From the IMG/VR virus record IMGVR_UViG_3300035698_001704, positions 1 through 30,833 of that record: DNA of 30,833 nucleotides; one strand, 5' to 3'. The DNA is from a virus. Within the stretch, counting starts at the first letter, position 1; each line of letters starts with the position of its first letter. This document shows, piece after piece, positions 3,049 through 25,853 of this stretch. The notes beneath the pieces are model-generated. The model saw only the letters and a program-made list of their open reading frames with translations, was not told the DNA's origin and searched no databases. A program made the translations under genes and the position numbers.

Positions 3049-4877
3049 ATCTAGCTCAAGTCCCAGCCCGAATGTTCAACGGTTCCACCCACCACTTCGA
3101 TGGGTTCATTCCTGTGACGGTGGAGCCTGATGGCCATTGCCATCATAAAAGCAGGGTCATCGGGAGCACCACCGGCGGCTACCGCCGGACGCTCGTCCGA
3201 GCATCCATCCCCCCGCTAACGGGGTCGCGGTCCGTCCAGTCCAGCTCAACCCCAACCGAGCCGGTCATCATGCCGCCCAACCTCAGGAAGATGCTCGGCA
3301 CCCTTGAAGTGAACGGGAGCCCGATGAGCCCCACAGACCTTGATTTGGACGGAGCGTTCATCCACGCGCACTTTCAGCACCGGCTGGGAGCGTTCATGGT
3401 CGATGTCTTCCTTAGTTGGTCGCCCATTCAAGGCTACGTGGCTCTCGGCGAGGCAATGATCACCTTGTCTGATGCATCAGGGTCCTTGGCCGTGACCACA
3501 ACCCCGGACATCAAGATCACCTTCGGCGATGCGGCGCTGCACTCATTGGGCCATGGATGGGGGTCGAAATGCTGGCCGATATCAAGGCGGACCATCAACA
3601 ACGGTCAAGCCATCGCGGCACCCATTGGATTCTTCTGGACGAAGTATCAGGGCATGGACACTCAGAAGGCCATTAACGCCACGTTGCTCTGCGAACGTCT
3701 TGTTGGCGGCTTCGGGATCGTGACCCTGGCCACCGGGAAGCCTACAGACGGCACCGACAAGACAGCGGTCTTCGCGTCCGCCATAGCTGTTCAGGGCGCG
3801 CGCCGCACAGGAACATGGGAACCGCCGGTCATCGGCCCGACAGCGGACAGTTCAGTGACTGGGGATCAGGAGGACCAAGTCTTTGTCCGCGGCGAGATGT
3901 TCACCGAGCCATCCGCCGTTTTGGGCACCTACCTCGCTGGCCTGAAAATGTCCAACCGCCCTTGCCATCACCGAGAAAACGACGGGAAGCAGGTTACATG
4001 GTGGGCCAACCTCGACTGCATCCTGTGGTCCGGCATCCCCCACTTCGATACGAACGTCTCACCGAACCAACTCGGCGTCCCGGCGCGAGCCTACCCAGCA
4101 GGCCAGGGCGGCTGGAGCGGCCCTGACCGTGAGCACAATCTATACGGCACGTTTTGCGCCGCCCTCAAGGCCACCGGCAGCCTATGCCTGGACTTCCTGC
4201 TGAACCATCAGGCGAACAACTTCCTGATGTCCGAGACCGTCCCAAGCTCCCATGGCAACACTTCAACCAACCAGATGGACGCGGCGCGCTCGGTTGGATG
4301 GATGGCCATCATGGCCGTTGACATATACCATCTGCTTCGCAACAGGGCGCTCGCGATGGATGTTGAGGCCAGATGGAAAGCTCGTTGGACAGAGGTCTAC
4401 AAGCCCACGATCGCTGGCCTTGAGCATCACGGTTTCATCTGGGACGTGAGGCTCAACGATCCCAGGCTCGGCGATGGGCTATGGTGGATGCCCTGGCAGC
4501 AATCCATAGGCGCTTACGGCTTGTGGTTGGCCGGAAATACCTTCCTTGTTCCGGAGGCCGTTAGAGAGGCTCTCAGGGCCGCTAAGCAGGTCGTTGATTG
4601 CGACTACGTGAAGCTTCCTGGTGAGACTTGGCGCAACGTGGGGAATCAAAAGCTCCACCCAACCCACCCCGGTGAACCATGGCCGGTAGAGACGTGGATG
4701 GACCCAAGCTATCAGTTTGGACCGACGTGGTTCTTTGCCACCTGGAACGTCCCAGCCCTAGCCATCACCAACGCTAACTCTGAGCCTGGATCAAAGGCCC
4801 GGATCATCTGGGACTCCTCGCACAGCACCCATGACCCTTCCTGGACGCCTCCTATCACCGTCCATCCGCTCGTATGA
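3045..4877 (+). CDS. unknown 610-residue protein, possibly carbohydrate-active or virion-associated
   Basis: Not recognised with confidence. The first ~290 residues look beta-rich. The second half is rich in Trp, His and helical segments, with blocks such as CHHRENDGKQVTWWANLDC, SGPDREHNLYGTF, NHQANNFLM and GLWWMPWQQSIGAYGLWLAG. That resembles the alpha/alpha-toroid domains of polysaccharide lyases and glycoside hydrolases, but this is an impression only. No signal peptide or membrane segment is visible. It is coupled by ATGA overlaps to the zinc-finger gene before and the HxD...H gene after. Its place among early genes, far from the tail module, is unusual for a receptor-binding or depolymerase protein. 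Confidence 0.7.
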   Translation: MNLAQVPARMFNGSTHHFDGFIPVTVEPDGHCHHKSRVIGSTTGGYRRTLVRASIPPLTGSRSVQSSSTPTEPVIMPPNLRKMLGTLEVNGSPMSPTDLDLDGAFIHAHFQHRLGAFMVDVFLSWSPIQGYVALGEAMITLSDASGSLAVTTTPDIKITFGDAALHSLGHGWGSKCWPISRRTINNGQAIAAPIGFFWTKYQGMDTQKAINATLLCERLVGGFGIVTLATGKPTDGTDKTAVFASAIAVQGARRTGTWEPPVIGPTADSSVTGDQEDQVFVRGEMFTEPSAVLGTYLAGLKMSNRPCHHRENDGKQVTWWANLDCILWSGIPHFDTNVSPNQLGVPARAYPAGQGGWSGPDREHNLYGTFCAALKATGSLCLDFLLNHQANNFLMSETVPSSHGNTSTNQMDAARSVGWMAIMAVDIYHLLRNRALAMDVEARWKARWTEVYKPTIAGLEHHGFIWDVRLNDPRLGDGLWWMPWQQSIGAYGLWLAGNTFLVPEAVREALRAAKQVVDCDYVKLPGETWRNVGNQKLHPTHPGEPWPVETWMDPSYQFGPTWFFATWNVPALAITNANSEPGSKARIIWDSSHSTHDPSWTPPITVHPLV

Positions 4878-9144: not shown

Positions 9145-9647
9145 TGGACCTGAAGTGGGACGCTGTCATGAAGCCTGAATGGGCGTCGAACCCAGTGGTC
9201 CACCATCAATACGTGGATCTTCCGGACAGTATTCAGACACCATCCACCGAAGACCTACTGAAGACATTCAAGACAGGGGCCTACAAGCTCCAGACCTGGA
9301 AGCGGTCAAAAGACATCACCGGCAAGACGATTCTGGAGAACGACCCGCACTGGATCGCAGTTCGTGGATCGACCCCGCTGCACATAGACCCGCGCTACCC
9401 GCGCTACAGCCATCACCTGAAGCTTCGGGTGGACGAAGGCATCTTGGTCCGTGGTCGCGACAAGGTGGAGCTACAGCTTGTCAGAGGCTTGTTCTACATC
9501 CTGGACACCCACAGCCCTCATCAGGTGCTCGCCCATGACGGTGGCTGGAATGTCGCCGTATCAGTGGACAGCAAGACGATCCTTCCGGCACGCGAGACCA
9601 TCGCTAAGTGTATTCTGTTCGCAGCATCTGAGACGGTGACCCCATGA
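9144..9647 (+). CDS. HxD...H double-stranded beta-helix protein, copy B (putative 2OG-Fe(II) oxygenase/cupin-like)
   Basis: 167 residues, paralogue of the product at 4874-5425. Shared core: HWIAVRGSTPLH80-I-D82, SHHLKLR (89-95), RGLFYILDTHSPHQV (114-128), GWNVAVSVD (134-142). H80/D82 with H123 or H126 form a plausible Fe(II) triad. The N-terminal 65 residues differ from copy A. Start ATG 9144 overlaps the glycosyltransferase stop (TGATG) and its own stop overlaps the IbrA-like gene (ATGA), so it is made together with both. Placed between a glycosyltransferase and a PAPS-reductase-fold enzyme, it could generate the hydroxyl or other group that is then modified; this is inference. Confidence 0.65.
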   Translation: MDLKWDAVMKPEWASNPVVHHQYVDLPDSIQTPSTEDLLKTFKTGAYKLQTWKRSKDITGKTILENDPHWIAVRGSTPLHIDPRYPRYSHHLKLRVDEGILVRGRDKVELQLVRGLFYILDTHSPHQVLAHDGGWNVAVSVDSKTILPARETIAKCILFAASETVTP

Positions 9648-10840
9648 CAAAGCTACTCATGGGCATCAATGTCCTGGAAGCCGCAAGAGACCGCATCCGA
9701 TGGCTGTTCGACCAGTATCCTGAAGAGAGCCCTGTGGTGTCCTTCAGCGGCGGCAAGGACTCGACCGTCTGCCTGAACCTGGTATGCGAGATCGCTAAGG
9801 AGCGCGGCACCGGGCCCGTTGACGTGGCCTTCATGGACCAAGAGACCGAGTGGAGCAACGTCGTCGCCTACATGCGTCGCGTCGCAGCCCGCCCGGACGT
9901 GAACCTGCACTGGTTCCAGGCACCCTTCACGCTGACCAACAACGCCAGTTCAGAAGCCGAGAGCTTCACTGCATGGGGAGACGGTGAACCGCACATGCGC
10001 GCGCGCGAGCCAAGCGCCATCACCAACCTCGGCATGGACACCAAGGAAGTCAGATTTCACGACCTGTTCGAGATCATGCTGAGGCACATCCGCGGCGACA
10101 AGCCCGCGGCCTTCGTTGGTGGCATGCGCGCGGAGGAAAGCCCTGTTCGCATGATGACGCTCACCAGAGACGGGGGGTATCGGGGTGTCACCTGGGTCAA
10201 GAGGCTCACGAAGAAGCGCGAGCATCACACGTTCCATCCGATCTACGACTGGACGTATCGCGATGTTTGGAAGGCCATTCACGATGGAGGCTGGGACTAC
10301 TGCCGCATCTACGACCTGATGTTCAAGCATGGTGTTCAGATCCCCCGCATGCGGGTCAGCAACCTGAACCACGAGACCAGCCTGGACAGCCTTCGCTACC
10401 TGCAAGAGCTTGAGCCAGCAACATGGGACGCGCTTGTAGCGAGACTGCCGGGCATTCATGCAGGTGGCACCATGGCAGCCAAGTTCTTTCCGACAGAGCT
10501 TCCAGAGATGTTCCCTACGTGGCGCGCGTATCGCGACCACCTGCTTGAGAACCTGATCCAACCCCACATGAAGCCCCGCTTCCTGAAGGAGTTCGACAGA
10601 CTGGACAGCAAGTATCGCGACAAGGGCATGCAGTCATTCGACGCCGTCTGTTGTCGCGTCCAGTGCCAAGCCATAGCCGTCAACGACTTCAGCTTCACGA
10701 AGATCCAAGGGTGGGAGTTCACCAAGGCAGTGGACGCTTTCCGCAGGTGGCTCAAGGGTCACCGCGGTGAGAAGCAGATGGTGAAGAACAAGTACATCCC
10801 GATAGATCCAGGGATTGCATCCGTCCAGGCAAAGCTCTAG
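9644..10840 (+). CDS. ibrA: IbrA-like PAPS-reductase-fold protein (DUF3440-type)
   Basis: 398 residues. INVLEAARDRIRWLF (8-22) and the PP-loop SFSGGKDS (33-40) mark an adenine-nucleotide alpha-hydrolase/PAPS-reductase fold that adenylates a substrate. VGGMRAEES, HPIYDWTYRDVWKAI, YCRIYDLMFKHGV and LEPATW follow the order of E. coli IbrA. C336, C337 and C341 (AVCCRVQC) near the C-terminus could carry sulfur or bind metal. The IbrB partner lies two genes downstream. IbrA/IbrB are known as regulators of eib genes in E. coli with phage-type origin; the biochemical reaction is not established. Together with the other operon genes a sulfur- or nucleotide-dependent DNA modification is plausible. Confidence 0.85.
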   Translation: MTKLLMGINVLEAARDRIRWLFDQYPEESPVVSFSGGKDSTVCLNLVCEIAKERGTGPVDVAFMDQETEWSNVVAYMRRVAARPDVNLHWFQAPFTLTNNASSEAESFTAWGDGEPHMRAREPSAITNLGMDTKEVRFHDLFEIMLRHIRGDKPAAFVGGMRAEESPVRMMTLTRDGGYRGVTWVKRLTKKREHHTFHPIYDWTYRDVWKAIHDGGWDYCRIYDLMFKHGVQIPRMRVSNLNHETSLDSLRYLQELEPATWDALVARLPGIHAGGTMAAKFFPTELPEMFPTWRAYRDHLLENLIQPHMKPRFLKEFDRLDSKYRDKGMQSFDAVCCRVQCQAIAVNDFSFTKIQGWEFTKAVDAFRRWLKGHRGEKQMVKNKYIPIDPGIASVQAKL

Positions 10841-12376: not shown

Positions 12377-12884
12377 GGCGCCCGTCAAGAAGCCGATGGG
12401 CAGACCGCGGCTTATCACCGACGAGCTAAGGGACAAGATCGTCCTCACGATCCAGCTTGGCTTCCCTCCAGCGCGCGCCGCACAGGCTCATGGGATCAGC
12501 AAGCAGACGCTTCACGAGCATGGCAAAGCGAACCCAGAGTTTTTGGACCGTATGAAGACAGCGGAGGCCGCTGCTGAGTTAAACGTCTACTCACGAGTGA
12601 TTAAGCACAGCGCGACTCAGTGGACAGCGGCAGCGTGGATACTGGAGCGCCGTTGGCCTGAGACCTATGCCAAGCGTGACGACAAGATCATCGTGAACAA
12701 CAACAACGAAGCCAACGCAGTGGCTGTCGTCCAGGGACCAGCAGCACCGCTCGGCCTGGAGCAACTCACCCGCGAACTGCGCCGGACCGCAGAGATCACG
12801 GGGGAAGTGCTCAAGATCACCGTTGAACCAGTCGTGGAGGAACCGAGTGGCAAGCAAGACGTTGACCCCAGCGGAGCGGAATGA
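12366..12884 (+). CDS. terS: terminase small subunit
   Basis: 172 residues. After GRPRLITDELRDKI, an N-terminal helix-turn-helix (about residues 34-52, PPARAAQAHGISKQTLHEH) and a helical oligomerisation region (MKTAEAAAELNVYSRVIKH) lead to WILERRWPETYAKRD, a pattern common in phage TerS proteins. It recognises the packaging site and regulates the large subunit encoded immediately downstream with a 38-base overlap. ATG 12366 is preferred over GTG 12354. The acidic C-terminus probably contacts TerL. Confidence 0.8.
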   Translation: MSDEAPVKKPMGRPRLITDELRDKIVLTIQLGFPPARAAQAHGISKQTLHEHGKANPEFLDRMKTAEAAAELNVYSRVIKHSATQWTAAAWILERRWPETYAKRDDKIIVNNNNEANAVAVVQGPAAPLGLEQLTRELRRTAEITGEVLKITVEPVVEEPSGKQDVDPSGAE

Positions 12885-14448
12885 TGAGGGCAGGCGGGTG
12901 GTGCTCGCAGCATTCGAGCGCATCTGCCCGCGCGTCATAGGCAACCCGTTCATCCCTCACTGGCCACTGCCTGCTCAGGCGTCCTTCATGGGCCTGCATC
13001 AAGCGTCCACAGGCCGCGTGTTCCAAGCGCTCTACGGTGGCGCCGCAGGTGGCGGCAAGTCTGACGCCCTGCTCATGGCCGCGGCTCAATACGCATGGGG
13101 CAACCCTGAGTATGCTGGCATCTGCTTCCGGAAGACGTTCACAGACCTCACCCAGCCAGGCGCCCTACTTGACCGCGCGAAGGAGTGGTGGATCCCCGCC
13201 GGCGCTCATTGGGATGGCAAGATGTTCACGTTCCCAGGCGGCGGCAAGGTCGTGTTCGCCTACCTCTACAAGCCAAACGACCACCTTCGCTATCAGGGCG
13301 CCGAGTATCACTTCACGGCATGGGACGAGCTGACCCAGTGGCCAGAGGCAGCGCCCTACGAATACGTAGGCATCTCAAGAGTCAGGCGGAAGAAGGGCAG
13401 CAAGATCCCCCTTCGCACCATGGCCGCGTCGAACCCTGGTGGCCCTGGACACTCATGGGTGTTGCGCAAGTTCATCGGCGCCGTTGACCCCAACACCGGC
13501 AAGTATGTCGAGCCAGAGCACCCCTACTGCCCTGCTCGCATCCGAGACAATCCCTACCTGGACCAGGAAGCCTACATCGCTGGCCTGATGCACCTGCACC
13601 CAACGGTCAGGGCCCAGCTACTTGATGGGGACTGGCGCGCGCGTGAGCCAGGCGACTACTTCAGGGCTGAATGGTTTGGTCCACTGCTCAACCCCGAGGT
13701 GGACACTTGGCCTAGCTCTGATTGTCTCCGTATCAGGTGGTGGGACTTGGCCGCCAGCGAGAAGGTCAGCGCCGCGCGAACGTCTGGTGTCCGGATGGCG
13801 CGTCACCGCAACGGGTCCAGAGCCATCGAGCACTGTCGCAGCTTCAGGGCAACCCCCGGCAAGCGCGACGACCTGATCTGTCAGACCGCACAAGGGGACG
13901 GCTTTGGCGTGACAGTGGGCCTGGAGATCGAAGGCGGCAGCGGTGGACCGGCTCAGTTTCTGGCCCTAGAGAAGCGCCTCAAAGGACTGGGGTTCAGGGT
14001 AGTGGGCGCCCGCCCGCGCTCGGAACTGAGAGGGCAGGAGGGCAAGCTGCTCATCCGCGGGAGCGTCGGCATGGGCGGCAAGGAAGCGCGCGCTGACCCA
14101 GTGGCCTCATGTCTTGAGCGCGGCTATCAGCGCCGTGGCGAAGGGGCAGATTCTGGAGCCCCATGGTATAACGAAGACCGAGATCGCCAGCCAGCGGACC
14201 AGCGGGACGGTCTGCGACTGTTCTCGGGCCCGTGGACGCAAGACTACCTAGACATCGTTGAGGGTTTCCCGGAAGCCGCGACCTGTGATGAGGTGGACGC
14301 GACCAGTGGCGCCTGGGCGTATCTGGAGGCTCACCCGTTCGGTGACAGGATTCCGATGCAGGCTCACGAGCAGCACAGGGTGGCTGAGCAGCAGAACCTG
14401 CATCCGGAAGACAGGTTCGAGGAAGCTCCCCGCTTCTGGAGACCCTAA
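12847..14448 (+). CDS. terL: terminase large subunit
   Basis: DNA-packaging ATPase/nuclease, 533 residues from GTG 12847, which has GGAGG 6 bases upstream. ATPase: Walker A GGAAGGGKS (64-72), Walker B FTAWDE (D160, E161), motif III AASNPGG. RNase-H-fold nuclease: WWDLA (D300), EIEGGSGG (about 360-367) and CDEVDATSGAW (D481). The region between ARADPVAS and GLRLFSGPW carries an extra ~30 residue Arg/Asp/Glu-rich segment not seen in a typical TerL. The frame stays open through it, so I keep it as one gene. The stop converges with and overlaps the minus-strand gene by 4 bases. Confidence 0.9.
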   Translation: MASKTLTPAERNDEGRRVVLAAFERICPRVIGNPFIPHWPLPAQASFMGLHQASTGRVFQALYGGAAGGGKSDALLMAAAQYAWGNPEYAGICFRKTFTDLTQPGALLDRAKEWWIPAGAHWDGKMFTFPGGGKVVFAYLYKPNDHLRYQGAEYHFTAWDELTQWPEAAPYEYVGISRVRRKKGSKIPLRTMAASNPGGPGHSWVLRKFIGAVDPNTGKYVEPEHPYCPARIRDNPYLDQEAYIAGLMHLHPTVRAQLLDGDWRAREPGDYFRAEWFGPLLNPEVDTWPSSDCLRIRWWDLAASEKVSAARTSGVRMARHRNGSRAIEHCRSFRATPGKRDDLICQTAQGDGFGVTVGLEIEGGSGGPAQFLALEKRLKGLGFRVVGARPRSELRGQEGKLLIRGSVGMGGKEARADPVASCLERGYQRRGEGADSGAPWYNEDRDRQPADQRDGLRLFSGPWTQDYLDIVEGFPEAATCDEVDATSGAWAYLEAHPFGDRIPMQAHEQHRVAEQQNLHPEDRFEEAPRFWRP

Positions 14449-17894: not shown

Positions 17895-19262
17895 ATGAGC
17901 TACGAGCTACGGACCCGCAACCAGTCGCAGCAGCTTTACACCCGCGCACTGTCGCAGGTATATCGCAACAATATTCAGACGCACGATCCCAGCGTCTGGC
18001 TCCTTCGTGATCCTGAGATCGAGGAGAAGATGCTGCGCGATGCGGACATCGCTCACGCGGTGGGCTACAGGCGCCACCTGATCGCTGGCCGTGATTGGCA
18101 GGTCGTGGCGTCCAGGCCTGGGCACCCTCGCGCGGAAATCGCACAGATGGTCGGCACAGAAATGCTGGGCTTCATCAAGCACTTCACGCAGGCCCGGCTC
18201 AATCTGGCGCGCGCGTTCTTCAGCGGTTCTCGATATGGACGCATCCACGGCGCAATGCGGAAACTGACCATCGGCGATGGGAAGCCCCGTCAATGGTGGT
18301 GCCCAATCCGGATCGAGGACGTTGACAAGCGGATCTACAGGCAGGTGCCGAAGAACGAATACGTCAATGGTGAAACCGTCTTGTCTGCCACCTGGGAGCG
18401 CTGGAACATCGCGCAAAGTAAATGGGAAGCAGAGACGATCCGGGACAGCATCAACACCATCAGGCACGTCTACCAAGACGACCAAGCCACCCTTGGCTAC
18501 GGTCGCGCGCTTCGCGAGGCTCTGGGATGGTGGTGGTATGCGAAGACGCATGTATTCGAGGAGTCACTGCAATCGGTTGAGCGTTTCTCCCAGGGGATGC
18601 TCACCGCGAAGATTGACGGTCTTCGCGACTCAGCCACTGGGCTCCCCAATGAGGAGCTTGCGGCACAGTGGATCGCCCTGCTTGAGCAGATGCGTTCCAA
18701 GCATGTCATGGTGTTCGACAACCGGGACGAGGTCACTCACGTGGAGATGACCGGCACCGGCTGGGAACTCCAGAAGACGATGCGCGAGGAACTGAAGAAC
18801 AGCATCTTCACCCTAGTCCTGGGCGCCAACCTGACCACGTCGGCGAGCGAAGGCGGCAGCTATGCGCTGGCGGAGGTCCAGGAAAACTCGACGGAGGCCT
18901 TGATCCAGTTTGACAGGCAGTCGCTAGAGGAAACCATGACGGACGACCTGATGGGTTGCATCTGGTTCCACAATCACGCCAACCTGACCGAACTTGGCAT
19001 CCAGGACCAGAAGCCCCGCTTCTCGGTGACCCAGGAGAAGAAGTCAGACCCGAAGGAGCGCGCGGATGTCGCAGCAGTCCTGAACGGCATGGGTGTCTCA
19101 CTGTCCCTTGAAGAACTGCTTGAGCAGACCGGCTTCAAGAGCCCTGACCCCGACGAAGAGGTCATCGCTGGCTCTACAGCGCCCGCCATGGACCTGATGA
19201 GCGGCATGGGCAGTTTCCCGCAACCATCGCAACCACAAGCAACCCCGCAGGCAGCTCAGTGA
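17895..19262 (+). CDS. portal protein (DUF935/Mu gp29-like)
   Basis: 455 residues forming the dodecameric channel at the capsid vertex through which TerL pumps DNA. Diagnostic blocks: LRDPEIEEKMLRDADIAHAV (38-57), AGRDWQV with DAT-type hydrophobic wing, KTHVFEESLQSVERFSQGML, and KNSIFTLVLGANLTTSASEG (DUF935 signature near 300). C-terminal ~40 residues are Pro/Gln-rich and variable. Start has no ribosome site but a -10-like TAGTAT just upstream. GTG 19259 of the next small gene overlaps its stop. Confidence 0.87.
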   Translation: MSYELRTRNQSQQLYTRALSQVYRNNIQTHDPSVWLLRDPEIEEKMLRDADIAHAVGYRRHLIAGRDWQVVASRPGHPRAEIAQMVGTEMLGFIKHFTQARLNLARAFFSGSRYGRIHGAMRKLTIGDGKPRQWWCPIRIEDVDKRIYRQVPKNEYVNGETVLSATWERWNIAQSKWEAETIRDSINTIRHVYQDDQATLGYGRALREALGWWWYAKTHVFEESLQSVERFSQGMLTAKIDGLRDSATGLPNEELAAQWIALLEQMRSKHVMVFDNRDEVTHVEMTGTGWELQKTMREELKNSIFTLVLGANLTTSASEGGSYALAEVQENSTEALIQFDRQSLEETMTDDLMGCIWFHNHANLTELGIQDQKPRFSVTQEKKSDPKERADVAAVLNGMGVSLSLEELLEQTGFKSPDPDEEVIAGSTAPAMDLMSGMGSFPQPSQPQATPQAAQ

Positions 19263-19411
19263 TCCTCCCGAACAAGCAACCCCGTCCAGTCCGTCCACCA
19301 GCCTTCGCCACCGACTTAGCGCAAGAGCATGAGGCCGCAGGTAGCTCTAAGGGCGGTCAGTTCGCGCCAGCAGGTGGCGGCGGCGGCGCCGGCGGGGGGC
19401 GGACGAAGTGA
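19259..19411 (+). CDS. 50-residue Gly-rich linker protein between portal and gpF-like genes
   Basis: From GTG 19259 (GTGA overlap on the portal stop) the frame encodes ILPNKQPRPVRPPAFATD, LAQEHEAAGSSKGGQFAPAG and a Gly tract ending RTK; its own GTGA overlaps the next start. SKGGQFAPAGGGGG-type tails are common in phage head proteins as flexible ends. The double overlap and clean frame support it as a gene rather than spacer; it may be a minor head component. Confidence 0.5.
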   Translation: MILPNKQPRPVRPPAFATDLAQEHEAAGSSKGGQFAPAGGGGGAGGGRTK

Positions 19412-20346
19412 AAGTAGACGCAGCCCGCTTCCTGGAAGACACCACCGGCCGCTTCGCCGCCCACTACAGGCGCGCGATGGGGGAGATGGTCCGGGCAGTG
19501 GCTTCCGGCGACAAGGGCCAGCTCATGGCCGCGCGCGCGCAGCTAGCCACAGCCATGTCGGACACCATGGCGATGGGGGAAGCGTTCGGCGCGATGCAGA
19601 TCCTTCGCGCGGCCGCAACCGAGATGGTGGATATGCACTTCGCTGGAGACACACGCGAGCTATTGTCATTTGCCGCCGAGACCCCCATCACCAGCCTCAC
19701 CCTAGTGGAAGCTCTAGCAGACATGGTTGAGCGCGCCCCGCGCACCCTACGCAAGTCAGCAGAGCGCACCGCTCAGAACATCGCCAAGCTCTACAGCGAG
19801 GACCGCGTCACCGCATTCGTCCGGTCTGCCGAAAAGGCAGTCACCGCGCAGGTGCAAGACGTGTTCCTCCAGGCGATGAAGGACGGCACCCACGAGAACC
19901 GCATTGGCCCAATGGTCCGCGAGGCCGTCGAGAAGGTGTCCACGAAGATGGCAGCCTGGACGGATGGCTATTCCAGGATGGCTTTCCGCACCAATATGAG
20001 CACCAGCGTCACCGCTGGACGCTTCAGGCAGGTTTCAGATCCGGCGGTAGCAGCAGTGATTCCCGCATTCAGGTTTGATGCCATGGGGGACAGCGACACC
20101 CGCCACAACCACATGATGCTTGACGGTCGCATTTTCAAGGCGAGCAACCCCGTCTGGAACAAGATCGCACCACCAATCGACTACAACTGCCGATGCCAAG
20201 TGTCGCTGGTGTCAAAGCCTCAACTGGAGCGCATGGGGCGATTGCTAGACGGCGACACCGTCGAGTCATCATTCCCCAGCGCCTACCGACCATCACCAAC
20301 CTTCCGTCACAGTGGGCGGCCTGACCTGTTCATGGTGGCTCAATGA
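19408..20346 (+). CDS. head morphogenesis protein (Mu gpF-like)
   Basis: 312 residues starting at GTG 19408. The C-terminal domain contains DAMGDSDTRHNHMMLDGRIF (224-243) and PPIDYNCRCQVSLVS (255-269 approx.), the PF04233-type signature found in Mu gpF and SPP1 gp7. The N-terminal two-thirds is helical. These proteins enter the procapsid in few copies with the portal and affect DNA ejection or head assembly. Position after the portal is canonical. Stop overlaps the next gene (ATGA). Confidence 0.87.
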   Translation: MKVDAARFLEDTTGRFAAHYRRAMGEMVRAVASGDKGQLMAARAQLATAMSDTMAMGEAFGAMQILRAAATEMVDMHFAGDTRELLSFAAETPITSLTLVEALADMVERAPRTLRKSAERTAQNIAKLYSEDRVTAFVRSAEKAVTAQVQDVFLQAMKDGTHENRIGPMVREAVEKVSTKMAAWTDGYSRMAFRTNMSTSVTAGRFRQVSDPAVAAVIPAFRFDAMGDSDTRHNHMMLDGRIFKASNPVWNKIAPPIDYNCRCQVSLVSKPQLERMGRLLDGDTVESSFPSAYRPSPTFRHSGRPDLFMVAQ

Positions 20347-20549
20347 CCATCTGGAGCGAGCTACGCCCGGACTTCAAGCGCATGGTGGCCCGCGATGGTG
20401 CTCACCGGACCGCAGAGCGTATGATGGTGAACAAGAAGACCGTCTATCGCCTGATCACGCAGGAGACGGAGGACCCCCGCCCGCTGACCGTAGACGCGGC
20501 TCGGCGGCTAATCGAGAAACGACAGACGGAGAATACCAATGAGCAGTAA
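20343..20549 (+). CDS. small HTH-like protein in the head module
   Basis: 68 residues: FKRMVARDGAHRTAERMMVN then KKTVYRLITQETEDPRPLTV and DAARRLIEKRQ. The pattern TAERMMVNKKTVYRLI reads like an HTH recognition unit of Cro/MerR type. ATGA overlap upstream and an 11-base overlap with the protease start. A DNA-binding regulator here would be unusual; it may be an assembly-time regulator of late genes or a displaced control gene. Confidence 0.6.
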   Translation: MTIWSELRPDFKRMVARDGAHRTAERMMVNKKTVYRLITQETEDPRPLTVDAARRLIEKRQTENTNEQ

Positions 20550-21915
20550 CGGTTACGAATGGGTCCAGGAGGGCAACAAGCTCATCATCCGCAATGTCCC
20601 GATCTTCGTTGAATGCGATCGCGGCGAGATGAGCTTCAATGCCACTTGGATCAAGAAGGCCATGGACAAGGCCAAGGTCAGGCAGCGCGAAGGATACTTC
20701 CCGCCGATCCATGTCAGGCACCATGAGCGCGTCAAGGCGCAAGAGAACGTCCAGGCGGCTGGCTACTTCAAGGTCACCGGGACCAAGCAGATCACCTTCA
20801 AGGGTGAGCGCCGGGAAGCGATCTTGGCCGACCTCATCATCACTGACCCGTTCATCGCGGATCAGGTGAAGAACTCCCGTCTTCCTTACCGCAGCGTCGA
20901 GATCCACTCACCGGAAGGCGAGAACCCCGGCCTGGACTCCCTAGCCCTGCTTGATCACGATGTTCCGTTCCTGGAGCTACCCATGCTCGAACTGGCTCAA
21001 AGCGACTCAGCGGTGGCGAATGCCACTTTCTGCTACGAAGGACAAGGTGATACTCGGGCGATGGTAGCATTCCGGCGCAACGACACGGCGCACCTACTGT
21101 TTTGCGAGGACGACATGGACACTGACGAAGAAAAGAAGATGAAGGCGGAGAATGACGCAGCGAGCAGGCCAACCGATGTCGGTTTGTCCGCAGCGCCGCC
21201 GGAAGGCACCCCGCCCGCTGACCCGGAAGGCACCCCGCCCGCCGAGCCACCGAAGGATGCCGTCCCGCTTGAGGTCGCGCCAATCTGCGCTGCAATCCGC
21301 AGCGGCGCAATTAGCGTCGCAGGCATGGATGAGATCGTTGAAGCAATCAAAGCCCGCACAGGCGTAGACCCTGAAGCAGCGGCAGCAATTCAACCCGACT
21401 TGAAACTGGACAACCCGGCCCCCGCCGCGGTCCCTGGAGCCGAAAGCATGGCAGCAAACACCGAAAACGTGGCGCGGTTCGCCGCACTCGCAGGCGAAAA
21501 CAGGGCTCTCAAGGGTCGTTTGGACGCCATGGAAGCAGACCGCGCGCGCGAACGCGACGTATCTGAAGCCTATTCCCGTCTCAAGGACCGCCCACTCGGC
21601 GCGGATCTCGAAGGCGAACTGATCAAGTTCCATACGGATCACGGTGGCGTCGCGTTTGCGGCCTACGTCGGTGCACTGCACAAGAACGTAGGCCCGACCC
21701 CGGAAGGCCGCAGTGCCTCGGTGGAATCGCCCACAGACACCAGCGGCGAGGCAGAGAAGTATCTCGACCTTGGCGCTGACGCCGTTGACAAGGCCGCGCA
21801 GTTCTCCTCTGAGTGGCGTGAGCTGTCTGCTTACGGCCACATCACGAAGAAGGAAGATCGTTACGTCGCCGTCGCGATGGCGCGCGCTGGCTTCCACCTC
21901 ACGGAGAACAAGTAA
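20539..21915 (+). CDS. prohead protease with C-terminal scaffold domain (Mu gpI-like)
   Basis: 458 residues. Protease domain about 1-160: HVRHHE (H58/H61/H62) and PYRSVEIHSP (S119) provide a candidate His/Ser pair of the assemblin-like fold, followed by LALLDHDVPF. The rest (about 190-458) is acidic, Pro/Ala-rich then coiled (ENRALKGRLDAMEADRARER), typical of scaffold. The protease matures the capsid and degrades the scaffold. A nested start at 21115 may give the scaffold alone. The 3' end contributes ACGGAGAACAAGTAATGG, which was copied during the downstream tandem duplication. Confidence 0.8.
   Translation: MSSNGYEWVQEGNKLIIRNVPIFVECDRGEMSFNATWIKKAMDKAKVRQREGYFPPIHVRHHERVKAQENVQAAGYFKVTGTKQITFKGERREAILADLIITDPFIADQVKNSRLPYRSVEIHSPEGENPGLDSLALLDHDVPFLELPMLELAQSDSAVANATFCYEGQGDTRAMVAFRRNDTAHLLFCEDDMDTDEEKKMKAENDAASRPTDVGLSAAPPEGTPPADPEGTPPAEPPKDAVPLEVAPICAAIRSGAISVAGMDEIVEAIKARTGVDPEAAAAIQPDLKLDNPAPAAVPGAESMAANTENVARFAALAGENRALKGRLDAMEADRARERDVSEAYSRLKDRPLGADLEGELIKFHTDHGGVAFAAYVGALHKNVGPTPEGRSASVESPTDTSGEAEKYLDLGADAVDKAAQFSSEWRELSAYGHITKKEDRYVAVAMARAGFHLTENK
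21115..21915 (+). CDS. possible nested in-frame scaffold protein
   Basis: ATG 21115 (MDTDEEKKMKAEND, residue 193 of the protease-scaffold) is preceded by GAGGA at 21106-21110 and lies exactly at the protease/scaffold boundary. It would make a 266-residue scaffold, as in lambda C/Nu3 and Mu I/Z. The alternative is no internal initiation. Confidence 0.4.
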   Translation: MDTDEEKKMKAENDAASRPTDVGLSAAPPEGTPPADPEGTPPAEPPKDAVPLEVAPICAAIRSGAISVAGMDEIVEAIKARTGVDPEAAAAIQPDLKLDNPAPAAVPGAESMAANTENVARFAALAGENRALKGRLDAMEADRARERDVSEAYSRLKDRPLGADLEGELIKFHTDHGGVAFAAYVGALHKNVGPTPEGRSASVESPTDTSGEAEKYLDLGADAVDKAAQFSSEWRELSAYGHITKKEDRYVAVAMARAGFHLTENK

Positions 21916-22330
21916 TGGCTAACCCCGTGCTGAACGTCGTCCACAAGACGAACCCCGCTGGCGGCCGAGCCAGCTTCCCGGTCAAGTCTGGTGTCACCCT
22001 CGGCGATGGCGCCCTTGTGATGTTGAAGGATGGCTTCCTAGACCACTGGGATGACACCAAGGACTTCCCCGGCCTCGTGGTGGGCGGAGACTTCAATTCC
22101 GCCACCGGCCTGCTAACGGAGAACAAGTAATGGCTAACCTCGTACTTAACGTCGTCCACAAGACGAACCCCGCTGGCGGCCGAGCCAGCTTCCCGATCAA
22201 GTCTGGTGTCACCCTCGGCGTTGGCGCTCTTGTGATGCTAAAGGCTGGCTTCCTAGACCACTGGGATGACACCGCGGACTTCTACGGCCTCGTGGTAGGC
22301 GGAGACTTCAATTCCGCCACCGGCCTGCTA
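21901..22330 (+). repeat. direct tandem duplication, two 215-base units
   Basis: Units 21901-22115 and 22116-22330 differ at about 14 positions by my hand alignment (about 93% identity). Each begins ACGGAGAACAAGTAATGG, i.e. the end of the protease gene plus the start of the decoration-like gene. The unit ends GGCCTGCTA before ACGG, so the join probably used the ACGG shared between the protease 3' end and the interior of the decoration gene. Confidence 0.9.
21915..22130 (+). CDS. truncated duplicate of the decoration-like protein (71 residues)
   Basis: MANPVLNVVHKTNPAGGRAS through GGDFNSATGLLTENK. Same as the first ~67 residues of the next gene with a few substitutions, then a stop supplied by the duplicated protease-gene end (TENK). 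Keeps its own GGAG-type ribosome site. The substitutions keep the frame open, suggesting that it is translated. It may make a half-size decoration subunit, be a relic, or simply allow coupling to the full-length copy, whose ATG shares a base with this stop. Confidence 0.6.
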   Translation: MANPVLNVVHKTNPAGGRASFPVKSGVTLGDGALVMLKDGFLDHWDDTKDFPGLVVGGDFNSATGLLTENK

Positions 22331-22594
22331 ACGGGCACCTCAGCACTGGAAGAAGCCACCGTTGACACGTCTGGCGTGACCTTGATGCACTTGAGCATTG
22401 GGGGCACGGCGACGGCAGCCAAGCGCGGCGATCTTGTCTACTGCGCTGACAGCAACCCAGCGTCGATGACCCTCACGGACACTACCAACGCCCCCGTTGG
22501 CTACATGAACCGGTGGCGATCCGCCACGGACGTTGACGTCACCCTGTTCACCCCTGGCGAGCATCTCGCTGGCATGGCCGCGGCTACTTGGTAG
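22130..22594 (+). CDS. head decoration/cement-like protein (154 residues)
   Basis: Full-length version of the duplicated gene: MANLVLNVVHKTNPAGG, a beta-rich body (GVTLGVGALVMLKAGFLDHW, GLVVGGDFN), then a unique part (TSGVTLMHLSIGGTATAAKR, DVDVTLFTPGEHLAGMAAATW). Size, beta content and placement between protease-scaffold and capsid genes fit a small protein bound to the capsid exterior. The assignment comes from context, not from a recognised motif. Confidence 0.6.
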   Translation: MANLVLNVVHKTNPAGGRASFPIKSGVTLGVGALVMLKAGFLDHWDDTADFYGLVVGGDFNSATGLLTGTSALEEATVDTSGVTLMHLSIGGTATAAKRGDLVYCADSNPASMTLTDTTNAPVGYMNRWRSATDVDVTLFTPGEHLAGMAAATW

Positions 22595-22622
22595 TCGGCA
22601 GCAACCCCGATAAAGGAATCAA

Positions 22623-23624
22623 ATGAGCAACGTCATCGCTGCCAACGTCCTGGCCAACGGACTCCGAAACGAGTTCGCGGATACCTACATGGCTATCCGC
22701 AATCGACAAGCCGATTCTCGGCTGGGTTCCATCATGGATTTGTCCATCGGTGCAACCAACCGGAAGCATGAGTTCGCCTACTTTGAGGCAGCTCCCCATA
22801 TGGAATACTGGCGCCGCGGCGACACTATTCCCACTGATGGCATGGACTCAGTCCAGTTCCAGGTGGAAGTCTACGAGTGGGCTCGTCGCGTCCCGTGGTC
22901 CAAGTGGGACCGCAAGGACGACCAGACGCAGTCCCTGATGGACGTTGCTCGCATGGCTGGCGAGTCGGCAGCACTGCTCCCGGAGCGGTTCTTCTTCGAC
23001 ATCCTCAACGGCGCCACGGCGGCCCTTCCCAAGATCCCCAACGCACCCGATGGCGTTGACATCTTCAGCGCTACGGATGGCGATGGCGGCAACCGCTTCG
23101 GTATCTCTGGCGGCAACATCGTCGCTGGCGGCGCTGGCGTTGGCTCTGGCACCGCGATCCAGTCGGACTTCTATGAGGCCATTGAGCGCTTCAAGGGGTT
23201 CCAGGATGGCAAGGGCCAGCCGCTCCTGAGCGATGAGACCATCGACAGCGGCTTCATCATTGTCCACCCAGCGGAGCACACGGAAGCGTTTGAGAGCGCC
23301 TTCCTGCAAACCCGCCGGGGCGACACGGTGGGCACGGGAACAGCGCTCGGCGCAGCGACCAACCTGGTTCAGGAAGCCAACCGCAACGTGACCCTCTGGG
23401 GCACTCAGCGGATGACTGGCAACGACTACGCGATCTTCCTGCGGAACCCGCCGAAGAAGGCGACGTTCCTGTTGGACCGCGAAGGCGTCCAGGAGTTCAC
23501 GAGCCTGGAAGGCGACAACAACAGCGACCACACGCGGAACACTGGCGAGGAATACGTCCAGTGGGAAGTGCGTCAAGGCGCTGGCGTAGCACTGCCGTTC
23601 GCGGCGATGCAAGTCGCTCCGTAG
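22623..23624 (+). CDS. major capsid protein (Mu gpT-like, HK97 fold)
   Basis: 333 residues, with AAAGGAATCAA before ATG 22623. Mu gpT-style organisation: N-terminal helix (LANGLRNEFADTYMAI), FAYFEAAPHMEYWRRGDTIP resembling the gpT region after its first strand, VYEWARRVPWSKWDR, then GESAALLPERFFFDILNGAT and IIVHPAEHTEAFESAF. Position after scaffold and decoration genes supports the call, and a strong terminator follows directly. Main structural subunit of the icosahedral head. Confidence 0.85.
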   Translation: MSNVIAANVLANGLRNEFADTYMAIRNRQADSRLGSIMDLSIGATNRKHEFAYFEAAPHMEYWRRGDTIPTDGMDSVQFQVEVYEWARRVPWSKWDRKDDQTQSLMDVARMAGESAALLPERFFFDILNGATAALPKIPNAPDGVDIFSATDGDGGNRFGISGGNIVAGGAGVGSGTAIQSDFYEAIERFKGFQDGKGQPLLSDETIDSGFIIVHPAEHTEAFESAFLQTRRGDTVGTGTALGAATNLVQEANRNVTLWGTQRMTGNDYAIFLRNPPKKATFLLDREGVQEFTSLEGDNNSDHTRNTGEEYVQWEVRQGAGVALPFAAMQVAP

Positions 23625-23662
23625 GCTCACGGAAAGACTGGAAGACTGACTAAGAGTTAATT

Positions 23663-23701
23663 GGGTCGTTGCTCCGAGAGGGGGGCGGCGACCCGTTTTT
23701 T
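23663..23701 (+). terminator. strong intrinsic terminator after the capsid gene
   Basis: GGGTCG (23663-23668) pairs with CGACCC (23689-23694), extended inward by TTGCTCC against GGGGCGG with three G.T pairs, small GA-rich loop, then G and six T (23696-23701). It separates the head genes from the connector/tail genes and would tune the high capsid expression. Confidence 0.85.
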
Positions 23702-23732
23702 GTTAAACCCCTCTACTGGAAGAACCCAGATC

Positions 23733-24479
23733 ATGACTACCTCAATCGTTCCCCCAACCGAGCCGACCCCCGAATCAACGGTGGATCAGCCCGTCGCGTC
23801 TGCATCGTCTGTGATGCCGGCGTCCAATGTCTTGCCCCCGAAGGTGAAGCGGTCGAGCGCACCCCGCACCAAGCGCGGTCCGCACGCCAAGACTGGCGTT
23901 TCGACCCAGCCCGTAATGGTCGAGGGAAGCAAGCTGATCCCCGATCTCAACGACCACAAGGAGGCGATGAGTGAAGAGGTCTTCTTCTGGATCGGCCTGA
24001 CGATGGACGCGCCGATCGAAAACATCACCCTTGCAGGCATCCGTGTCAGCAAGACGCAAGAGCGTGTTGTCCGCAGCAAGACGGACCCGAAGAAGCACGA
24101 CCGTTTCCCTGTCTACGGCGGCATCGCCCGCATGACCCGACAGCGCTTTGACCAGTTCTGCGAAGTCATGTCTCGGACGGTTTTCCGCTTCCATTCGACT
24201 GACCCCGTAGTGGAGGAAGCTGGCACCGGTCAGAACATGGGCGACGTCCATGTTAAAGCCCGCCGCGGCTACCCGATCCAGATCCCCAGCGCCAAGCTCA
24301 TCGCTGATCGCAAGGCCAACGGCAAGAGCATCCGGCCCTACCGAGCGTCCGGTCTGGACGAAGCAGCGGCCTACTACATCTACGCGCGTGAGTGCCGGGA
24401 CCAGAAACGACCGCAACGCGAGCAGGACCAACCGGGAACGCTCGACAAAACTGGTATCGTTTGGCCTGGCAGCAACTAA
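23733..24479 (+). CDS. unknown structural-region protein (248 residues)
   Basis: Start ATG 23733 with GGAAGA 9 bases upstream; the frame upstream of it runs through the terminator. N-terminal ~65 residues are Pro/Ser/Thr-rich and basic (RSSAPRTKRGPHAKTG), likely disordered; then a folded part (EEVFFWIGLTMDAPIENITL, PVYGGIARMTRQRFDQFCEV) ending in charged residues. First gene after the terminator. Could be a minor head or head-tail protein; no motif recognised. Confidence 0.65.
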   Translation: MTTSIVPPTEPTPESTVDQPVASASSVMPASNVLPPKVKRSSAPRTKRGPHAKTGVSTQPVMVEGSKLIPDLNDHKEAMSEEVFFWIGLTMDAPIENITLAGIRVSKTQERVVRSKTDPKKHDRFPVYGGIARMTRQRFDQFCEVMSRTVFRFHSTDPVVEEAGTGQNMGDVHVKARRGYPIQIPSAKLIADRKANGKSIRPYRASGLDEAAAYYIYARECRDQKRPQREQDQPGTLDKTGIVWPGSN

Positions 24480-24497
24480 CCCCGCAGGAATGAAACC

Positions 24498-25853
24498 ATG
24501 AGTGGATCACCAACCGAAGTTCAGATCAGAGCCCAGTGGACGGCAGCAATCGCGATTCTGGAGTCTATCCGGAACCTCGCCGACGGGACCGTAGCTGGAG
24601 ACGGCGGCCTTCTGGATGATCTGGTGGTCAGCCTCAAGGGTGAATACACCCCCTCGCTCACGACTGTAACGTCGCGGATGAGGGCAGGCCTTAGCTCGAT
24701 GGTTTCGCCGCAACAGGCGCAACAGGCGTTCGGTCCGATCCTGATGGAATACGGCCACCGCATCAGCAAGGGCGGCGGCTACGCGGAACTACTACTTCTA
24801 ATGGGCGCCCTCTACGATCACTTCGTAGACAACAGCCTCTACGTGCTGACTCGCGGCATTGGCTACGACCTGACCGCGACCCTCGGGGCGGACAACGTCG
24901 GTAACGGAGCTATTGGCAGGCTCACCGTTGACCACCGCGGCTTCGACTTGGAAGCCTGTCACGTGGAGACCAAGCGGTTCGTTTGCGTCGGTGACCAGAA
25001 TCAGGGTGTCAAGAAGGGAGCAGAGGTCTTCGAGTTCCTCGGTGAGTCCGCCAGCCCTGATAACCTGCTTGTGGGCGCGACATACGACACTGGCAAGCTG
25101 TTCGGGTCCGGGCAGTCTCAATCTGCCCGTCTACGCTCCTATCACGCTGGGGGCGGTCCTGGTGGCTCCTCGCTGAACAACAGTTCATGGAGCACCTACA
25201 ACCCTTCTCAGACCCCGAAGTTTGCGGGATGGGATGAGACAACCAACCCGACCAAGGTCACCCAGAACACTGCCGTCACCTATAGGTCCTTTCCCAACTC
25301 GACGGTTGATGGCTCGCTACAGCTCACTGGAGACGGCGGAACCGTCTTGATCACGCAGACGCTGGCCAGCATGCGGATCACCCGGTTCGAGGACCGGCCC
25401 TATGGTCTGCGGGTCATGGCGCGCGCGGACACCGGCACAGCAACCGGCGGCAACCTGATCGTCACCCTCGGATCGTCGTCCCAAAGCTTCGCTGTTGACG
25501 ACATCCGCACCACTGGCGGCTGGGTCGAGATCATATTGGACTTCGATGCTGATAGCTGGTTCCAGAACTTCGGCGAAGCCGACATGGCCGTCACCATCTC
25601 GTGGGACAGCCCGACCAGCGGCTACCTGCTTCTCGATGACGCCATCCTCATGGCTATGGATTCCATTGACGGCACCTACTGGTGGATTCGTCAGAACGCA
25701 GCGACCCCCATCAACTGGCTCGTGGAAGACGAGTTGGCCTTCACTGACACTGGCGGAGCCCCCGGCACGGGCAAGCTTCAATGGTGGCTTTGGCGCGCAG
25801 GTTACGGCTACCTGCCCAACAGCGGATCGACTCAGATCCCGGAGCCTAGCTAG
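24498..25853 (+). CDS. virion-associated protein with jelly-roll-like domain
   Basis: 451 residues, AGGAA 9 bases before ATG 24498. The first ~130 residues are helical (IRAQWTAAIAILESIRN); the middle has GGGPGGSSLNNSSW; about 250-390 is beta-rich with SFPNSTVDGSLQLTGD, YGLRVMARADTGTATGGNLI, GWVEIILDFDADSWFQNF and GYLLLDDAILM, the alternating pattern of carbohydrate-binding-module jelly rolls. Likely a capsid-surface or head-fibre protein that binds glycans or particles; adsorption role is inferred. The stop shares a base with the next GTG. Confidence 0.6.
   Translation: MSGSPTEVQIRAQWTAAIAILESIRNLADGTVAGDGGLLDDLVVSLKGEYTPSLTTVTSRMRAGLSSMVSPQQAQQAFGPILMEYGHRISKGGGYAELLLLMGALYDHFVDNSLYVLTRGIGYDLTATLGADNVGNGAIGRLTVDHRGFDLEACHVETKRFVCVGDQNQGVKKGAEVFEFLGESASPDNLLVGATYDTGKLFGSGQSQSARLRSYHAGGGPGGSSLNNSSWSTYNPSQTPKFAGWDETTNPTKVTQNTAVTYRSFPNSTVDGSLQLTGDGGTVLITQTLASMRITRFEDRPYGLRVMARADTGTATGGNLIVTLGSSSQSFAVDDIRTTGGWVEIILDFDADSWFQNFGEADMAVTISWDSPTSGYLLLDDAILMAMDSIDGTYWWIRQNAATPINWLVEDELAFTDTGGAPGTGKLQWWLWRAGYGYLPNSGSTQIPEPS

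Follow-up and report, generated by a model that had tools for sequence, protein, structure and literature searches.

Tandem gene duplication followed by divergence is known from tailed phages. It is described for the tail tube genes of Adele and its relatives, and more than 30 similar genes are arrayed in G and 121Q (PMC12846349, PMC5646251). Here we analyzed a duplication of an ordinary kind, located in the head module of a tailed phage, in a metagenome virus record of 30,833 bases. This whole stretch of DNA is referred to as the window, and all positions are given on it.

Results

Head module of the window

Genes for the terminase large subunit (12823-14448), then for a portal of Mu type (17895-19262) and for a protein that is Mu F-like (19408-20346), precede an intact gene on the plus strand (20539-21915) that occupies the position of a head maturation protease or scaffold. 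The major capsid protein gene lies further along the same strand (22623-23624; Phage_capsid_4, E 6.2e-09). The 20539-21915 gene, hereafter the upstream gene, had no match in Pfam or PHROG, and in related loci its homologues, at about 32-44% identity, likewise lie 5' of the capsid gene; from gene order alone we infer that it encodes the protease or scaffold. The linker of the upstream gene contains a second tandem repeat of 24 nt that stays in frame (PEGTPPAD; 21199-21256), and the related loci L023, L024 and L025 carry tandem repeats of 22 and 30 nt inside this same gene. Directly 3' of the capsid gene there is a terminator-like hairpin of 14 pairs followed by a T run (23662-23695). The window also encodes a RecE/YqaJ-like recombination exonuclease (99-1130) and, as an auxiliary gene 5' of the terminase, a phosphoadenosine phosphosulfate reductase-like gene with DUF3440 (9644-10840); no tRNA genes were found.

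When compared with annotated phages, the terminase gave matches that were all below 60% identity, the decoration and capsid proteins gave none by tblastn, and the 20539-23624 region gave none by blastn. When the capsid alignment was run against bacterial and archaeal genomes, 24 stretches fitted a pattern but none was confirmed, so this comparison yielded no evidence of a host or prophage.

The duplicated unit and its breakpoints

Two units of 215 nt lie head to tail on the plus strand, at 21901-22115 and 22116-22330. They are identical at 201 of 215 positions, with 14 mismatches and no indels (6.5% divergence), and the similarity at an offset of 215 drops to background level immediately outside the units on both flanks. 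A chance origin of the repeat was excluded, since the next-best 215-nt match in the window at offsets below 2 kb reached 101/215 and triplet-shuffled versions of the window gave best values of 90-92/215 in five of five trials. The tetranucleotide ACGG is present at 21901, 22116 and 22331; the copy at the far breakpoint (22331-22334, plus strand) matches 21901-21904 and 22116-22119. The microhomology between the inferred breakpoints (21901 and 22331) is thus exactly 4 nt, and at least 4 nt was reached by 2.0% of 200,000 random breakpoint pairs. The sequence speaks for a microhomology-guided join at ACGG without proving it. In concordance with these results, the initial annotation had reported a 215-base tandem duplication of about 93% identity with ACGG at the join, and its coordinates and frames were right. 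When viral contigs were searched for exact copies of two stretches of the repeat, one of 28 nt and one of 24 nt, neither gave a match.

The unit runs from the final codons of the upstream gene to a point at which codon 69 of the decoration gene is not quite complete, and carries those final codons, a ribosome-binding site, a TAATG and 68 decoration codons. A GGAG ribosome-binding motif with a TAATG stop/start overlap, read from the sequence, is therefore found on the plus strand both 5' of a short ORF (21903-21917) and, duplicated, 5' of a long one (22118-22132), and the start regions of the two ORFs are identical from ACGG through ATG. As this start region equals the ancestral one, the short ORF is probably translated; no sigma-70-type promoter was found 5' of either ORF within 20300-24600.

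The short ORF (21915-22130, plus strand) encodes 71 residues, namely 68 decoration codons followed by the last codons and the stop of the upstream gene. This comes about because the unit length of 215 nt equals 2 mod 3 and start and stop overlap by one base, which makes the frame of the first copy meet the duplicated upstream stop; the short ORF ends in ...LLTENK and the upstream ORF in ...HLTENK. The earlier proposal that the first copy ends after 71 residues through the duplicated end of a protease gene was therefore correct as to the stop, while the name protease has no Pfam or PHROG match behind it. The duplication left both the upstream gene and the long copy unbroken, and the latter continues, as had been annotated, to 154 residues in an intact decoration-protein gene (22130-22594, plus strand).

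The long copy is a predicted decoration protein

The long copy matched PHROG 1731 (virion structural protein, head and packaging) at E 7.2e-05 over residues 14-131, as did 18 of 20 aligned members of its family, whereas the short copy alone had no match in PHROG. In Pfam, none of the 20 members of the decoration family had a match, and a sequence-profile search of the PDB with the long copy returned none either. Its gene lies directly 5' of the capsid gene, a placement shared by the relatives.

The model of the long copy (pLDDT 80.0, pTM 0.71, 20 sequences) has strands within residues 18-58 and 75-139 that flank residue 68, and solved decoration proteins align over its residues 7-152. With VIA-align, Pam3 8hdt_G and HFTV1 8qsy_JJ each reached Z 8.8 over 121-135 residues, a score near the level for which the tool itself cautions that it may be middling, and the first 13 rows were phage or haloarchaeal virus capsid entries throughout. 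Chains from the capsid entries of phiCD508, T1, Pam3 and HFTV1 were the best matches to the model; we take the matched chains to be the decoration proteins of their entries, in part from their length. Several of the entry titles name the capsid only. The best rows of Foldseek had a probability of 1.00, yet no PDB match reached E 0.001; among predicted viral proteins 41 did, of which a few bear the names capsid fiber, DUF2190 family or minor capsid protein and many are unnamed or fibre-like. Congruently with the decoration-like gene of the initial annotation, the long copy is predicted to be a capsid decoration protein with a compact beta fold.

The short copy is cut within the predicted fold

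The decoration part of the short ORF stops at residue 68, in the middle of a fold that spans residues 7-152, and the 71-residue product does not hold a complete decoration fold. Its model reached a pLDDT of 60.7 and a pTM of 0.42 (21 sequences), with just two strands of at least 3 residues, although AlphaFold may give poor models of truncated proteins whether they fold or not. Because of the mid-fold cut and the poor prediction, the short ORF is unlikely to encode a complete decoration subunit. The claim that a truncated surface protein had been added to the capsid thus becomes doubtful (pLDDT 60.7 vs 80.0).

Related loci carry a single copy

Viral contigs were scanned with the capsid protein, which gave 31 loci, and with the capsid alignment, which gave 84 loci of which 80 were kept and which overlaps the former scan. 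The capsid alignment served as the query, the decoration alignment having no sufficiently conserved stretch. Loci with at least 700 nt 5' of the capsid gene were considered scorable, and nine of the 80 were too short. All 71 scorable loci contained exactly one decoration domain 5' of the capsid gene, compared with two in the window, and none of these domains was a fragment; the sole domain with fewer than 110 profile columns lies at a contig edge in L051, one of the nine too-short loci. The loci are not independent, as the 74 loci with a domain represent 58 distinct proteins of at least 120 residues. The comparison with single-copy relatives that the initial annotation had suggested supported the duplication: since 71 of 71 scorable relatives have one copy, the sequences indicate that a single copy is the ancestral state, and within the viral contig collections searched the duplication appears private to the virus of the window. 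This single-copy ancestor, the breakpoint identity and the head-to-tail copies fit a microhomology-mediated tandem duplication. The tandem units and the microhomology at the join likewise agree with the illegitimate recombination that had been proposed as the source of the truncated ORF.

Two further features were observed in the related loci. The Mu F-like gene of L001 (429-2240) encodes 603 residues and, judged by motif, contains an apparent intein, in a segment that starts with CFLPGTRI and ends with VTSN before CRC. In L023 (3450-3962), L024 (997-1509) and L001 (near 3932-4001) a longer decoration N-terminus with a hydrophobic stretch is possible (MLTLLLLLLAAAVFF..., MTTLLLILCALAALAVAF...), which may reflect either an alternative start or a segment that lies in the membrane.

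Divergence between the copies

Over the 68 codons the two units differ by eight nonsynonymous and six synonymous changes, and omega was estimated at 0.44 (NG86), 0.37 (LWL85), 0.38 (YN00) and 0.45 (separate count). When 14 random changes were simulated under neutrality (n = 4000), at least six were synonymous in 16% of the simulations (P = 0.16), a stop arose in 19% and the frame stayed open in about 81%, so that neither the open frame nor omega is evidence of selection. Family members compared in ten non-overlapping pairs, which diverge by 3.6-20%, showed about 63 nonsynonymous vs 103 synonymous differences, with a pair omega of 0-0.43; the nonsynonymous/synonymous ratio of the window pair is higher than in these pairs, but not significantly (Fisher P = 0.17). 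The 8/6 differences are compatible with neutrality as well as with a constraint like that in the family. The dN/dS comparison put forward in the initial annotation thus returned an omega below 1 without rejecting neutrality, and the suggestion that both copies are kept was not borne out (omega 0.37-0.45; neutral P = 0.16, family P = 0.17).

The shared 68 residues were scored against a profile of 21 relatives (24 minus three near-duplicates), and the short copy fitted it with 64.4 bits vs 68.5 bits for the long copy. The long copy agrees with the commonest residue of the 24 relatives at positions 4 and 39 (L in 12 and A in 11), where the short copy has a rare one (P in one and D in one). At position 23 the residues of both copies are common (I in 13, V in 7); at position 49 the A of the long copy occurs in one of the 24 and the K of the short copy in none, and at positions 31 and 52 the residue of either copy is absent from all 24. 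The profile scores of D31 and K49 in the short copy are slightly above those of the long-copy residues. We lean weakly toward relaxed constraint on the short copy from these sequence comparisons.

A divergence of 6.5% is comparable to that between separate related viral contigs and is not young in absolute terms; the duplication had been called recent, a term that is relative only and was not established. Either the duplication has persisted, or the units already differed when they were joined, through an exchange between variants. Long persistence would be unexpected for a tandem repeat of no use, since recombination can remove it.

Discussion

The locus is probably best explained by a microhomology-mediated tandem duplication that left a short ORF, which is probably translated yet a by-product, beside a long copy that does the work. 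Recombination or replication slippage would have connected position 22115, within the decoration gene, to position 21901, among the final codons of the gene upstream, through the ACGG that both share. Since the unit would bring along the ribosome-binding site and the TAATG start, the long gene would keep a complete start region and stay intact, and the first copy would become a 71-residue ORF closed by the duplicated upstream stop. The short product may then be translated without forming a working decoration subunit and do little harm, leaving the long copy alone to decorate the capsid. Two observations run counter to a by-product: the short frame has stayed open through 14 differences, with omega below 1 (0.37-0.45), which leaves room for some constraint on the short copy although about 81% of the neutral simulations have an open frame too, and survival to 6.5% divergence is unexpected without use.

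These same observations, together with the ribosome-binding site that the short frame has for itself, would suit a retained N-terminal decoration fragment that works by binding either to the capsid or to the long copy and, for example, reduces occupancy by competition. We regard such a fragment as unlikely, because its fold is cut midway and poorly modeled, it is found in none of the 71 scorable relatives, the selection tests are not significant, and it has proline at positions 4 and 52, which are mostly hydrophobic in the relatives. Hardly more credible, and if anything a little less so, is the more specific proposal that the duplication was kept because the 71-residue product, comprising the N-terminal arm and the first strands behind an identical start site, tunes decoration as a truncated partner or competitor, with the duplicated TAATG also coupling translation of the long gene to that of the short one.

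As to the origin of the by-product and its long neighbor, the units may have differed before they were joined, by unequal exchange between coinfecting variants, in which case the 14 differences would be uninformative on the age of the duplication and on later selection. This is a real but minority possibility. The 6.5% divergence resembles the 3.6-20% by which separate related contigs differ in the ten pairs, and the window encodes a RecE/YqaJ-like exonuclease, phages with such genes being prone to recombine; however, the viral contigs searched gave no close relative with either copy, and an event within one genome suffices. The least probable reading is an assembly or library artefact, in which a chimeric read or a strain mixture produced a false repeat. 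The sequence does come from a metagenome virus record, and no second record with the exact repeat was found among the viral contigs. Against this, the joined flanks share 4 nt only, so the junction should have been in the reads, the overlap that assemblers require being far above 4 nt, and each unit has its full length and an open frame, with no gap.

We therefore return to the microhomology-mediated duplication with a short by-product. It offers a clean snapshot of how 4 nt of microhomology can yield a new, closed, translatable ORF in a dense phage operon with its neighbors unbroken, because the duplicated stretch brings a ribosome-binding site and a stop/start overlap with it. Detection of the short product in virions would make this a case in which a truncated structural paralogue was born; as the evidence stands, the event is ordinary.

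The model of the long copy resembles in fold the decoration proteins of Pam3, HFTV1, T1, FCWL1 and phiCD508 (Z 8.1-8.8) and, more distantly, lambda gpD and P21 SHP (Z 5.3-5.6), at 10-23% identity in the parts aligned with solved decoration proteins; measured against these proteins, the short copy corresponds to the first half of the fold only. Our literature search found no comparable case, which does not exclude published cases elsewhere. In Adele and its relatives, G and 121Q, whole genes were copied, whereas in the window a partial copy was closed by the duplicated stop of its neighbor.
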